The position numbers and the translations under genes were made by a program. From NCBI GenBank assembly GCA_020349865.1, contig CP070700.1, forward strand, positions 1,563,541 to 1,571,739: DNA of 8,199 nucleotides, given 5' to 3'. Below are positions 894-8,199 of this stretch, piece by piece (positions within the stretch are counted from its first letter, which is position 1; each line of letters starts with the position of its first letter). The stretch is from Desulfobacteraceae bacterium (lineage in GTDB: Bacteria; Desulfobacterota; DSM-4660; Desulfatiglandales; Desulfatiglandaceae). The notes beneath the pieces were generated by a model. It was not told where the DNA came from. It searched no databases and saw nothing but the letters and a program-made list of their open reading frames with translations.

Positions 894-1835
894 TCAACTC
901 GCCTTTGAAAGAATTTCTCGTATGGGATCAACTCCAAGAAAGCCTTCTCTGAGTTGACGATCAGAAAGAGCATTTGCCACCTTGTTTATCACTTCCGATG
1001 CAGCACCCCATTGCTCCCGCGCCTCGCTGAGTCGTTTCAGCTTAGAAAAGGCGGATGCTAGAGAAGAATGGGCTTGCCAGAGTTGTCGAGGGTTTCCTAC
1101 TTCTTTTAGAATCTCAACAGCTTCCCAAAAATGTTCAATGGCTTTTTCAGATTGCTTACGTCCCAACTGAACCTCACCCATCAACCGCAAGAAGCATCCT
1201 TCTCTTTTTTTCAACTGATGACCTCTGACTTTTTCAAGGTTTTCCCGGATAAAGGTATCAGCTTGATCGATATCGTTTCTGGATATGAGTACTTGCGCGG
1301 CCAGGTAGTTCATCCGGCTTGCCCATACATGGCGCGCAATGTCATAGTCTTTGGTGCTCGACTCCGATTTAAAAGACTGCATCAACTCCCATGCCTCATC
1401 CAATTTGCCCTGATCAAACAGGTTTTCCATCAAGTTAACGGTTGCCTGAGCATGCATTTCCGAATAAAGGCGAATTCCAGCGGCGTCCTGATCCATTTGG
1501 CTTCGAACTACCTCAACAGCTCTTAGGTTATAATTCCAGGCATGGTCAGGTAAAACAATCTTACTGTAACAATATCCAAGCGTGTTATAAAGTGCCCCCA
1601 ACCGAAAGACTGCCCCGAATTTTTCCGATATATTAATACCTTGTTTCATTGCTGCCATTCCGTCTTCAATCCGTCCGATTTCGGCCAGGGCAACGCCTCG
1701 CATTGAAAGCAAGTATAACTGTCGTGTCACGTCGAATTCAGAACCCAAGGCTTCAGCAAACCCCTCAGTTAACTCTAATGTCTTTGTGGGTCGCCCAAGC
1801 CAACGCTCCGGGAAGGCTCGATAGCTGCGGGTATC
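894..1835 (-). pseudogene. TPR-containing C-terminal remnant of a cyclase/ATPase/TPR protein
   Basis: This frame (up to 313 codons, bounded upstream by a TAG at 1836-1838) has no good start. The first usable codon is a TTG at 1748 without a convincing ribosome site, and the coding character already begins upstream near 1800 (LGRPTKTLELTEGFAEALGS). The sequence is a series of helical TPR-like repeats, for example ALAEIGRIEDGMAAMKQGI, LYNTLGYCYSKI and LIRENLEKVRG-type segments. It ends in a region resembling the C-termini of large bacterial adenylate-cyclase/AAA/TPR proteins (REQWGAASEVINKVANALSD). I read it as the detached C-terminal end of the gene whose N-terminal half is at 1775-2833. The two are in different frames (-1 relation), and the ATPase core that should join them is absent. 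It is probably not translated, unless by reinitiation. Confidence 0.75.
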
Positions 1836-2833
1836 CTATTTTGAAACTCATAAGAGAGGCGACTTTTTCCCACACCGGCTTCACCCACTACATCCACTAC
1901 CCGTGCTTCACCGCTTTTGGCCCGCTCCCAAGCTGTTTTGAGAATCTCCATTTCAGGCCGACGGCCCACAAGCTTGGTGATGCCTTTGGCCAGACCAGCT
2001 TCAAATCTGGTGCGAACTTTTTTATGTTCAGCCACAAGACGATAAGTAGGTTGTGGTTCGGCTTTGCCCTTCAATTCAAGATCACCAACCGATTCAACCT
2101 GAAAAAACCCGCCAATGATATTTTGTGTGTACTTGGTTAGCCATACTTCACCCGGTCTTGCAGACTGCTGAATGCGCGCGGCCAAGTTTGTTGTGTCACC
2201 CACAGCCGTATAGTCCATCCTCAAATCATCGGCGATGGCACCCACAATGACCGGGCCGGAGTTTATTCCAATGCGTATCTTGAACTCCACACCTGTGTTT
2301 TCCTTCATCTTAGTGCCGTATTCAATCATTACCTTTTGAATGGCCAGGGCTGCATAGCAGGCCCTTTGAGCATGATCCTCATGGGCAACAGGGGCCCCGA
2401 ATAAAGCCATGACACCATCACCTGTGAACTGATTAATAGTACCCTCATATCTATGGATTTCATCCATCAAAATCTTGAAAAATCCATCCATAATCTGGTG
2501 TACTTCTTCGGGGTCTAACTTCTCTGATATTGAAGTGTAGTTGGCCACATCTGCAAAGAAGGCCGTTACCAGTTTCCGCTCCCCTTCCATGGAGCTACGA
2601 GTGGTGAGGATTTTATCTACAAGGTGCTTGGGAGTGTAGGATTGGGGTTCTGAATAGTCTAAAGAAGAGGCTTTTTTGATTCCTTTTAGATTATGGCCAC
2701 AATCTCCACAAAAATCATCATCCGATAGTATTTCGGCATCGCATTTAGGACAAGTCAGTAAAAGTTTACTCCCACATTTACGACAGAATTTCTTTGTCTC
2801 AGGATTTTCGGCCTGGCAGTTTGGGCATTTCAT
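1775..2833 (-). CDS. Zinc-ribbon class III adenylate/guanylate cyclase, truncated in its ATPase domain
   Basis: The product is 352 residues from the ATG at 2833, chosen over an upstream in-frame TTG (2851) because GGAGGA lies 4 nt before the ATG. Order of parts: a double zinc ribbon (CPNC..CRKC and CPKC..CGDC, about residues 3-45); a class III nucleotide cyclase domain (about 84-265) with both metal-binding aspartates (FFADVANYT and FTGDGVMALFG) and the NLAAR transition-state Asn/Arg; then the opening of a STAND/AAA ATPase with an intact Walker A (GEAGVGKSR). Soon after Walker A the frame runs into unrelated residues and stops at TAG 1775-1777. Full-length relatives continue with an ATPase core and TPRs. 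The cyclase domain itself looks intact and could still make cAMP or cGMP. The usual purine-specifying Lys position in GTINQFTGDG is Gln, while the partner position (YTAVGD) is Thr, so base specificity is not clear. The gene has its own promoter at 2906-2934. Confidence 0.85.
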   Translation of the reverse strand: MKCPNCQAENPETKKFCRKCGSKLLLTCPKCDAEILSDDDFCGDCGHNLKGIKKASSLDYSEPQSYTPKHLVDKILTTRSSMEGERKLVTAFFADVANYTSISEKLDPEEVHQIMDGFFKILMDEIHRYEGTINQFTGDGVMALFGAPVAHEDHAQRACYAALAIQKVMIEYGTKMKENTGVEFKIRIGINSGPVIVGAIADDLRMDYTAVGDTTNLAARIQQSARPGEVWLTKYTQNIIGGFFQVESVGDLELKGKAEPQPTYRLVAEHKKVRTRFEAGLAKGITKLVGRRPEMEILKTAWERAKSGEARVVDVVGEAGVGKSRLSYEFQNRIPAAIEPSRSVGLGDPQRH

Positions 2834-2905
2834 ATCGTCCTCCGGAGTCAAAAAAGCGTTTATTGATGGGGGAAAGGAACGGATTATTTGTTATTGATAA
2901 GATGA

Positions 2906-5852: not shown

Positions 5853-5896
5853 ATTAAGCCCCGAAAGAGATAAAGCGATCTCTTTCGGGGCTTAAT
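5853..5896. terminator. Perfect 19-bp inverted repeat, probable terminator of the selenoprotein transcript
   Basis: ATTAAGCCCCGAAAGAGAT is repeated exactly in inverse orientation around a 6-nt loop (5872-5877). The GC-rich core with TTAA ends forms a very stable hairpin in either direction. It begins 64 bp after the MerB-family stop codon. The T-run on the minus strand is poor, so it may act as a 3' end-stabilising hairpin or a weak bidirectional terminator rather than a classical intrinsic terminator. Confidence 0.65.
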
Positions 5897-5960
5897 ATCC
5901 GTGCCTTCTGAAAACCTTTTCTCATGGTCCTTCCAAAAACCTATAATAACTTCTTATTTA

Positions 5961-6659
5961 TCAGCCCGGCATTTGCCAGAAAGAACCCAAAGCTTGGAAA
6001 CCTCCAATCGCTTCCATCATATATTCCTGCAAGTGGGAAACATAATCTGAATCCAGGCGTTTCGTAAAAAGACTGCCAGAAAAACCTGCTGCCATGTCAA
6101 GTACCGGTATCATCCCTGCTTCGGCGTCTGACTTAAAACCGCTCCAGTTACGAACATGCTCTTCCGACCGGAAGATATTCATGGTGCTTCAGGCGTAGGG
6201 CAGATCATTGAACCACTCCCGAAGGGGGACGCACGTGAATGCCATCAGACCTTCTGGTTCGGTTTTTAGTACTTCACCGTCCTTCATTTCCACTTTGATC
6301 GGCGATCCACAATCCAGACAGGGAGCATCGATCTGGACAACTTTACCCGGAACAAGCCAGCTGACCGCTAGCGACTCGAATCCTCATTGACCGAACCATT
6401 TTTGTTGGCCATCAATTGTGATGCGGTACTGAGTGGGTAGGTTATTGAACGGGGGAAAAGAGCAGATGTAGTCTGTATTGGGGAACAACCACCCAGGGAA
6501 CATGGGCGTTGAGAAAAGTTCCTGAAGAGCCTTTCTCCCCTCGTCAGGAGCGACTCCTAATTCGGTTGCGATCTCTGTATAGTGCGGTGCTTGCCCTGTC
6601 TCCACCATTCGTTTCATGATGATTTGAAATACTTGATCAGATTGGCTGGATTCACCCAT
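5961..6659 (-). CDS. Alkylmercury lyase (MerB)-family selenoprotein with two in-frame UGA (Sec92, Sec157)
   Basis: From the ATG at 6659 (AAGGAGG lies 8 nt upstream) the frame runs to TGA 5961-5963, followed at once by TAA, giving 232 residues if two internal UGA codons (6384-6386, 6189-6191) are read as selenocysteine. Residues about 1-60 form a helical winged-helix-like domain; then come SFPPFNNLPTQYRI and the MerB core. UGA92 sits in GQ-Sec-GFESL, where MerB has Cys96; Glu95 takes the place of Asp99, and Cys114, exactly 22 residues on, matches the MerB Cys117. UGA157 sits in PYA-Sec-STMN, where MerB has Cys159, with a conserved Trp 15 residues later. A CxxC (114-117) and Cys143 are also present. 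MerB cleaves carbon-mercury bonds using these two cysteines and the acidic residue. The reading is supported by a SECIS-like hairpin after each UGA and by intact coding between them. The substrate is unknown; no mer genes are adjacent. A pseudogene is the alternative but would need two chance stops at exactly the catalytic positions. Confidence 0.88.
6160..6191 (-). promoter_or_regulatory. SECIS-like element for UGA157
   Basis: The UGA is at 6191-6189. After 19 nt comes the tetraloop GGUC (6169-6166), closed by a perfect 6-bp stem UCUUCC/GGAAGA (6175-6170 with 6165-6160). Further out, AUG (6182-6180) can pair with CAU (6158-6156). The loop sequence and distance closely match the E. coli fdhF element, where GGUC follows the UGA by about 18 nt and is bound by SelB. 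Confidence 0.83.
6356..6386 (-). promoter_or_regulatory. SECIS-like element for UGA92
   Basis: The UGA is at 6386-6384. After 17 nt comes the loop GGUCA (6366-6362), closed by the 6-bp stem GCUAGC/GCUGGC (6372-6367 with 6361-6356; one U-G pair). Two G residues at the start of the apical loop, at this distance from the UGA, are the defining features of bacterial SECIS hairpins read by SelB. Confidence 0.83.
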
Positions 6660-6723
6660 GGTAATACCCTCCTTATATCAAGTTTAGAAATCTTTTGGAC
6701 ATTTTGTTGCAAAGAGTGGAATA

Positions 6724-6924: not shown

Positions 6925-8025
6925 TTACCTCATGTCGATCTCTCGCCCTGCACGCTCATTCACCTTACAGACAGGATCCCCCGGTTTCCATTTGCCACTC
7001 CGCAGAGGCCGAAAGCAGGTGTTACAGGACAAACACGGAACGATCTCTTCAGCCCTGCCCTCCATAACCTTATTAGGCCATTGGGGATCAGCCAGTAACT
7101 GCCGAGCAATACCGACGATATCAGCCCTTCCCTGTGTCAAAATGGACTCGGCCACTTCCGGAGTGTTGATCCGCCCCACAGCCATAACTGGGACAGAGGT
7201 AACCTCTTTTATGGCCTCGGCTAAATGCACAAAGGTACCCATCTTGGCCCTCTTGGTGGGTGATGCCAAGCGTTTGGTATCATGACCAACGGAAACATCG
7301 AAGAGATCTATACCTTCCTTTTCCAGTTCCGCTGCAAAAGCCTTACTCTGTCTGAGGGTAATACCTCCTGCTCTCTTCTCCTCAGAGGCAATTCGGAAAA
7401 AGATGGGAAAGTCGTCCCCAGAAGCATTTCTCATGGATTGGGCGATCTCAAGCCCAAATCGCATTCGTCCATGGAGATCACCCCCATACTGGTCCGTTCT
7501 TTTATTGTCCGCTCCTGAAAAGAATTGGCAAAGGAGGTACCCGTGGGCACCATGCACCTCAACAAAATCGAAACCTGCCTCCTTGGCCTTTTCCGATGCC
7601 AAGCCAAACTTGTTAACAATGGATTGAATCTCATCCACAGTCAGTGCTCTCATATTATCCACGGCCGAAGGAGCCACCTGTTCACCGAAACCCTCTATTG
7701 CTACGCCGCTCCCGGCTGGAAACTGGTTTCCATGCCAGAGTTGGATGCCTATCTTTGCACCGGCATCCCTGATCTCCTGGTTAATGGTTTGCATACTTTC
7801 GACAAAGATACGCACACCGTCGGGTCGTCCCCAAGCTTCGTCATCAATGAAAAGATCCACCGAAGTGGCACACATGATAATGGCACCCACACCACCCCTT
7901 GCCCGCTCCAGATAAAATGCCCTGGCTCGCCGGTTTCTTACCCCCAACACCAGTTGCATGGCAGGCATCACGATATGGTTCTTTAATGTCATTCCCCTTA
8001 TGGTTATTGGTTCGAATAATTTCAT
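6925..8025 (-). CDS. OYE-family NADH:flavin oxidoreductase with C-terminal Fe-S cysteines
   Basis: The product has 366 residues from the ATG at 8025, preferred over an in-frame start at 8052 because GGGAGA lies 6 nt upstream and homologous sequence begins at MKLFEPITI. The FMN TIM barrel carries IQLWHG (Gln95, His98) and HGAHGYL (His158, His161 and Tyr163, the substrate-binding histidines and proton donor). Near the C-terminus, CLSCNTC and a later Cys (331, 334, 337, 353) in the context CKVNERAG match the 4Fe-4S site of 2,4-dienoyl-CoA reductase/trimethylamine dehydrogenase-type members. Unlike those, the protein ends about 13 residues after the last Cys and has no FAD/NAD(P)H domain, so electrons would have to come from a separate partner. 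The substrate is unknown. The MerB-family gene follows 265 bp downstream on the same strand. Confidence 0.92.
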   Translation of the reverse strand: MKLFEPITIRGMTLKNHIVMPAMQLVLGVRNRRARAFYLERARGGVGAIIMCATSVDLFIDDEAWGRPDGVRIFVESMQTINQEIRDAGAKIGIQLWHGNQFPAGSGVAIEGFGEQVAPSAVDNMRALTVDEIQSIVNKFGLASEKAKEAGFDFVEVHGAHGYLLCQFFSGADNKRTDQYGGDLHGRMRFGLEIAQSMRNASGDDFPIFFRIASEEKRAGGITLRQSKAFAAELEKEGIDLFDVSVGHDTKRLASPTKRAKMGTFVHLAEAIKEVTSVPVMAVGRINTPEVAESILTQGRADIVGIARQLLADPQWPNKVMEGRAEEIVPCLSCNTCFRPLRSGKWKPGDPVCKVNERAGREIDMR

Positions 8026-8199
8026 CTGCGTTCTCCCTTGTATTGGTTTCAAATGATCTCAATCAATTTTAACCCCGTAGTTGCATAAATGTGGATAAAA
8101 AACCGCTATTTTGCCTTTTAAAACTTCAATTGCCGCTTTTGGCGCCTTCGATCAGGAATTCACTAATGGTGAAATCCAGAATTGGCCTGCAAAATGGCC

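Follow-up and report, generated by a model that had tools for sequence, protein, structure and literature searches.

The organomercurial lyase MerB binds mercury through two cysteines, Cys96 and Cys159, and MerB-like proteins with predicted selenocysteine (Sec) are already in print. SaoL is given in a table of PMC13188914 as MerB-like with one predicted Sec in the motif 'CU', and 'Organic mercuric lyase MerB2' appears among the predicted selenoproteins of PMC7435645. Here we describe a gene from an 8,199-nucleotide stretch of a Desulfobacteraceae bacterium genome (GCA_020349865.1, contig CP070700.1, positions 1,563,541 to 1,571,739), which we analyzed as a whole and call the window. The gene (window positions 5961..6659, minus strand) encodes a MerB-family protein of 232 residues and contains two in-frame UGA codons, both of which are predicted to be read as Sec. 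We consider it probable that the UGAs are decoded by means of hairpins and that the protein cleaves C-Hg bonds with a pair of selenolates.

The frame, on the minus strand, starts with an ATG at 6659, which has a likely ribosome binding site by sequence reading (AGGAGG, 6668..6673, minus strand) 8 bases 5' of it, and it closes with a terminal UGA (5961-5963) followed immediately by TAA. A preliminary description of this DNA had reported two UGAs inside a 232-codon frame, and both were confirmed, at codon 92 (6384..6386, minus strand) and codon 157 (6189..6191, minus strand). A standard open reading frame listing splits the gene at these codons into pieces of 91 and 73 residues. The same description had assigned the protein to the MerB family. 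This assignment is borne out by the PF03243 profile, which the protein matches with 72.5 bits against a gathering score of 27, and the predicted fold is the MerB fold.

Alignment by phmmer to PDB sequences, with chain residue numbers counted from the printed alignment, pairs U92 with C96, E95 with D99, C114 with C117, and U157 with the first Cys of the C159/C160 pair. The claim that both UGAs lie at the catalytic Cys columns of organomercurial lyase is therefore correct, and the anchor spacings offered for it hold (22 residues from U92 to C114 and 15 from U157 to W172). The protein lacks the classical Cys96 and Cys159 as such, because both columns are UGA, the predicted Sec being a chemical analogue of Cys. 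Codon 95 (6375..6377, minus strand) places Glu, a likely proton donor, in the Asp99 column, which is acidic and mostly not Asp among 121 sequences (116 E, 5 D). Codons 114-117 (6309..6320, minus strand) encode CLDC, where C114 occupies the MerB Cys117 column and C117 adds a CxxC pair; this motif is near-invariant, with C114 in 121/121 sequences and C117 in 120/121. Judged by these columns, the protein would be at most MerB-like in action, with selenium in place of sulfur.

The two-UGA pattern recurs far beyond chance. Hereafter, site 1 is the codon 92 column, site 2 is the codon 157 column, and U and C denote UGA and a Cys codon. The first genome scan returned five relatives, three in Desulfobacterota and two in Chloroflexota, and in every one of them both sites are TGA. 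Among 395 Desulfobacterota genomes, 37 had matches, and 27 of the 27 full-length rows (>270 bits) have exactly two TGA codons; the rest consist of fragments and distant relatives. A sample drawn at class level, 389 genomes in all, yielded 26 rows, 24 with two TGA codons and two partial rows with one, and it added 22 further U/U genes in which both sites were read. From 400 Chloroflexota genomes came 23 rows in 18 genomes, of which five have two TGA codons, 13 have one and five have none. No row of the Desulfobacterota, Chloroflexota and class-level scans contains an in-frame TAA or TAG, codons that the preliminary description had named as evidence against Sec.

When 32 double-UGA genes are aligned, the window gene included, in-frame UGAs occur only at the codon 92 and 157 columns, and 54 double-UGA genes from two phyla keep the frame on either side of both columns. 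Homologs with U/U, one-Cys and C/C pairs, for which the preliminary description had suggested a search, were all found: the 13 one-TGA Chloroflexota genes and L045 combine a Cys at site 1 with a UGA at site 2 (C/U), and eight loci of the aligned set are C/C. At each of the two columns, an in-frame UGA thus has counterparts with Cys among the homologs. A protein search over 5.8 billion sequences gave 482 matches. The 120 listed comprise 47 with Trp at both sites, 65 early-ending ones with Cys at site 1, five C/C proteins and three of other types; one of the 120 has Ser at site 1. Of the 67 early enders in this list, 66 have residue 156 as their last, immediately ahead of the second UGA. We infer from the protein sequences that in the Trp/Trp and early-ending entries a UGA was translated as Trp or taken as a stop.

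Some loci depart from the common form. In two Chloroflexota loci, L004 and L005 (8001-9560), the double-UGA MerB domain is followed, with no stop between, by a C-terminal AAA-ATPase-like region, named from the motifs WAAPGSGKT and DEID and not from a profile, for a total of about 519 residues. A separate Chloroflexota subfamily (L050, L052, L054, L055, L057-L062, L065 and L067), typically with NCAWDxxG ... TUGTMLLFRSEEH, shows Cys, Asp and UGA at the three catalytic columns and shares the GGUC core 3' of its UGA. Locus L092 (G1148), from a genome with hgcA, has UGA at site 2 without a matching in-frame N-terminal part and is possibly a decaying copy.

Cys and Sec appear to interchange repeatedly at both sites. 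In a quick maximum-likelihood tree of 72 rows with the two columns removed, C/U changes number at least nine at site 1 and at least seven at site 2. For 13 of the 72 rows, which come from database proteins, U at site 2 is an assumption, and 18 of the 120 listed proteins had been hand-picked. With U so assumed, the 72 rows hold no state other than U and C at the two sites. The distant relatives L043 and L045 share 93% DNA identity, with TGC at site 2 in one and TGA in the other, and also differ by a Ser-to-Cys change two codons past site 2. Their difference is a possible very recent Cys/Sec switch. With C/C, C/U and U/U members, the family offers a test set for what selenium buys at each position.

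A hairpin resembling a bacterial selenocysteine insertion sequence (SECIS) element lies just 3' of each UGA, and the case is weaker at site 1. The predicted element after the first UGA (GCUAGC-GGUCA-GCUGGC, 6356..6372, minus strand) is based on folding and codon conservation, and that after the second (UCUUCC-GGUC-GGAAGA, 6160..6175, minus strand) on folding and on a core fixed at synonymous sites in two phyla. The site-2 core is CUUCC-GGUC-GGAAG; a GGUC loop is also present in E. coli fdhF. Among genes with the residue in question, the site-2 codons are fixed as TTC (46/46), CGG (45/45) and TCG (46/46), with 22/22 more in the class-level sample, despite the six codons available for each of Arg and Ser. 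The three best-conserved four-codon windows at synonymous sites begin at codons 161-163. At site 1, Ser96 is TCG in 23/23 U/U genes with Ser. Of the synonymous shuffles, 150 per site, none had a mean folding energy as low as that of the real genes (site 1: 32 genes, z = -5.5; site 2: 46 genes, z = -12.7). The C/C genes lack the site-2 hairpin and so serve as its natural control: 30/32 U/U genes but 0/8 C/C genes have the GGUC loop, and the mean energy over the same 36 bases is -10.2 kcal/mol in U/U genes versus -4.2 kcal/mol in C/C genes. None of 13 Cys-coded C/U genes has the GGUC loop at site 1.

Evidence for Sec machinery comes from the genomes of relatives. SelB and selenocysteine tRNA (tRNA-Sec) were found in 5/5 of the first relatives and SelA in 4/5. 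SelB scored over the cut-off in 39 of 40 UGA-carrying genomes, which include two of those five, and the sole miss (G014) has a tRNA-Sec match of 74.3 bits. SelB is missing from four Chloroflexota genomes whose only versions are C/C; within this phylum, it is present in 14/14 carriers versus 0/4 C/C-only genomes (P = 0.0003, few genomes).

We propose that Sec92 and Sec157 would ligate R-Hg+, that Glu95 (Asp99 in MerB) would deliver a proton to the carbon, and that R-H would then leave. Bound Hg(II) would next move on, possibly first to the CLDC dithiol close by and from there to free sulfide or thiols. This hand-over is proposed because MerA, the customary partner of MerB, scored over the curated cut-off in only 5/44 genomes tested; the near-invariant CLDC pair is a candidate acceptor. 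Exchanging Cys for Sec is plausible since, among MerB mimics, selones split Hg-C bonds faster than their sulfur analogues, as reported in PMC11639659.

Several observations weigh against this reading. Sec incorporation and lyase activity are both predictions from sequence. Hg(II) release is the weak point of the mechanism, as two selenolates could bind too tightly for turnover. The third catalytic residue of MerB, Asp99, is replaced by Glu95, and the NCBI MerB models score far below their curated cut-offs (NF009710/NF033555, 32.4 of 193 and 26.4 of 200); the best NCBIfam match is SaoL (NF040728), at 39.8 bits, below its cut-off of 140. No neighbor gene recurs in 41 neighborhoods, so neither a mer operon nor a transporter backs the substrate. 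The site-1 hairpin is less secure because its loops vary among U/U genes, because the mean energy at this site does not differ between Cys-coded C/U genes and UGA genes (-10.5 each), and because the C/U gene L049 carries the site-1 TCG codon too. As for machinery, the SelB test covered a minority of the class-sample carriers, and four Desulfobacterota genomes with stop-free distant relatives have SelB (sites read in three). SelB is generally common in Chloroflexota (117/151 genomes), so its presence in all 14 carriers is weak on its own (0.028). The four SelB-less C/C genomes have best tRNA-Sec matches of 47.1-47.6 bits against a gathering score of 47; we read these as chance matches to other tRNAs because 5/14 control genomes also pass.

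Among the alternatives, the one that survives best is a double-Sec lyase of MerB fold whose natural substrate is another organometal or organometalloid, which we regard as unlikely but serious. The NCBI name for SaoL, 'MerB-like organometallic lyase', leaves the substrate open, and the SaoL match, the 41 loci without recurring neighbors and the scarcity of MerA would all fit. However, at the three catalytic columns the protein matches MerB, the replacements being conservative, and no neighbor indicates another metal. Absence of MerA is ordinary for MerB, 906 of 1795 MerB genomes in PMC8261052 lacking it. In addition, hgcA is somewhat more common in carriers (19/26 versus 152/363 others in the class-level sample, P = 0.003; kinship, genome size and completeness not controlled).

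A redox enzyme on a MerB scaffold, in which a Sec92-Sec157 diselenide or selenenyl-sulfides with CLDC would reduce a small substrate, is improbable. PMC9312934 regards most selenoprotein families as redox proteins, CLDC is nearly invariant, and an Old-Yellow-Enzyme-type oxidoreductase gene adjoins the MerB gene in the window. That neighbor does not recur, the UGA pair falls on the metal-binding pair of a lyase, and the carboxylate kept at column 99 would be needless for a plain redox pair.

Slightly more improbable is a mercury sponge, in which the diselenolate would bind Hg(II) or CH3Hg+ irreversibly, without catalysis. Selenolates bind mercury very tightly and MerA over the cut-off is mostly absent, which would suit a sponge, but such a protein would need neither the column-99 carboxylate nor the whole MerB fold, both of which are kept. 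Finally, the possibility that UGA ends translation or the gene has decayed, or that a changed code reads UGA as Trp, can practically be dismissed: the open reading frame listing ends at the UGAs and the 47 listed Trp/Trp relatives would agree with it, but it is contradicted by the frame kept in 54 genes, the lack of TAA and TAG in the three scans, the Cys homologs, the site-2 hairpin that is gone where the codon is Cys, the presence of SelB or tRNA-Sec, and the absence of any other UGA from the 32 aligned genes, from which it follows that their other Trp codons are TGG.

If the double-Sec lyase reading holds, two Sec at both metal-binding positions of a lyase would be an extreme use of selenium in soft-metal chemistry rather than in redox. 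A further possibility, to which we give tentative credence short of an even chance, is that methylmercury demethylases with an active site of di-selenolate type (Sec-Glu-Sec) form a hidden class, working mostly without MerA, in Desulfobacterota and some Chloroflexota, many of them with hgcA. Since two UGAs split its gene, such a class would go unseen in merB surveys that rely on annotated proteins. It would place demethylation genes in anaerobes where these surveys show few: Deltaproteobacteria are 10 of the 1778 bacterial MerB genomes in Table 1 of PMC8261052, and such anaerobes are 1/93 of merB genomes in the survey of PMC9948709. The carriers with hgcA could also make methylmercury themselves. 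PMC8261052 reports HgcAB in none of its genomes with MerB but without MerA, so the overlap with hgcA would be new if it holds.

Elsewhere in the window, a long inverted repeat 3' of the gene (5853..5898, strand not given) is a likely transcription terminator by sequence reading, although a terminator scan requiring a T run does not list it. Its assignment to an Rfam family was disregarded, since it gave only sub-threshold matches to unrelated families. Two Old-Yellow-Enzyme-type genes lie at the window ends (1-801 and 6925-8052, minus strand), one directly upstream of the MerB gene, and neither recurs in four or more other loci. At 894-2851 (minus strand), a zinc-ribbon/adenylate-cyclase frame ends 51 positions into its AAA_16 domain, and a TPR frame begins about 27 bases past that end; together they resemble a single long regulator gene that has been broken or has lost an internal part.

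Compared with MerB (PF03243; 3f0o, 3f2f and 1s6l), the window protein differs in the Sec predicted for both Cys, in Glu for Asp99, in the extra Cys that gives CLDC, in having no mer operon in view and in scoring below the NCBI cut-offs. MerB2 (PDB 5c17) is the closest solved structure by sequence and fold and has Cys at both sites, and the printed alignment puts Ser in its Asp99 column. SaoL (NF040728) is MerB-like, as is the window protein, but is listed with one Sec rather than two. PMC7435645 indicates that a Sec-containing MerB-like protein had been predicted by 2020; its table entry gives no sequence and neither the number nor the position of Sec. The preliminary description had left undecided whether such a family was already described, and the answer is divided: MerB-like proteins with a single Sec are in print, whereas the open literature searched, which did not include the original SaoL paper, did not describe any MerB in which both catalytic positions are Sec. 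The single-Sec proteins are known, and the double-Sec version is apparently new.
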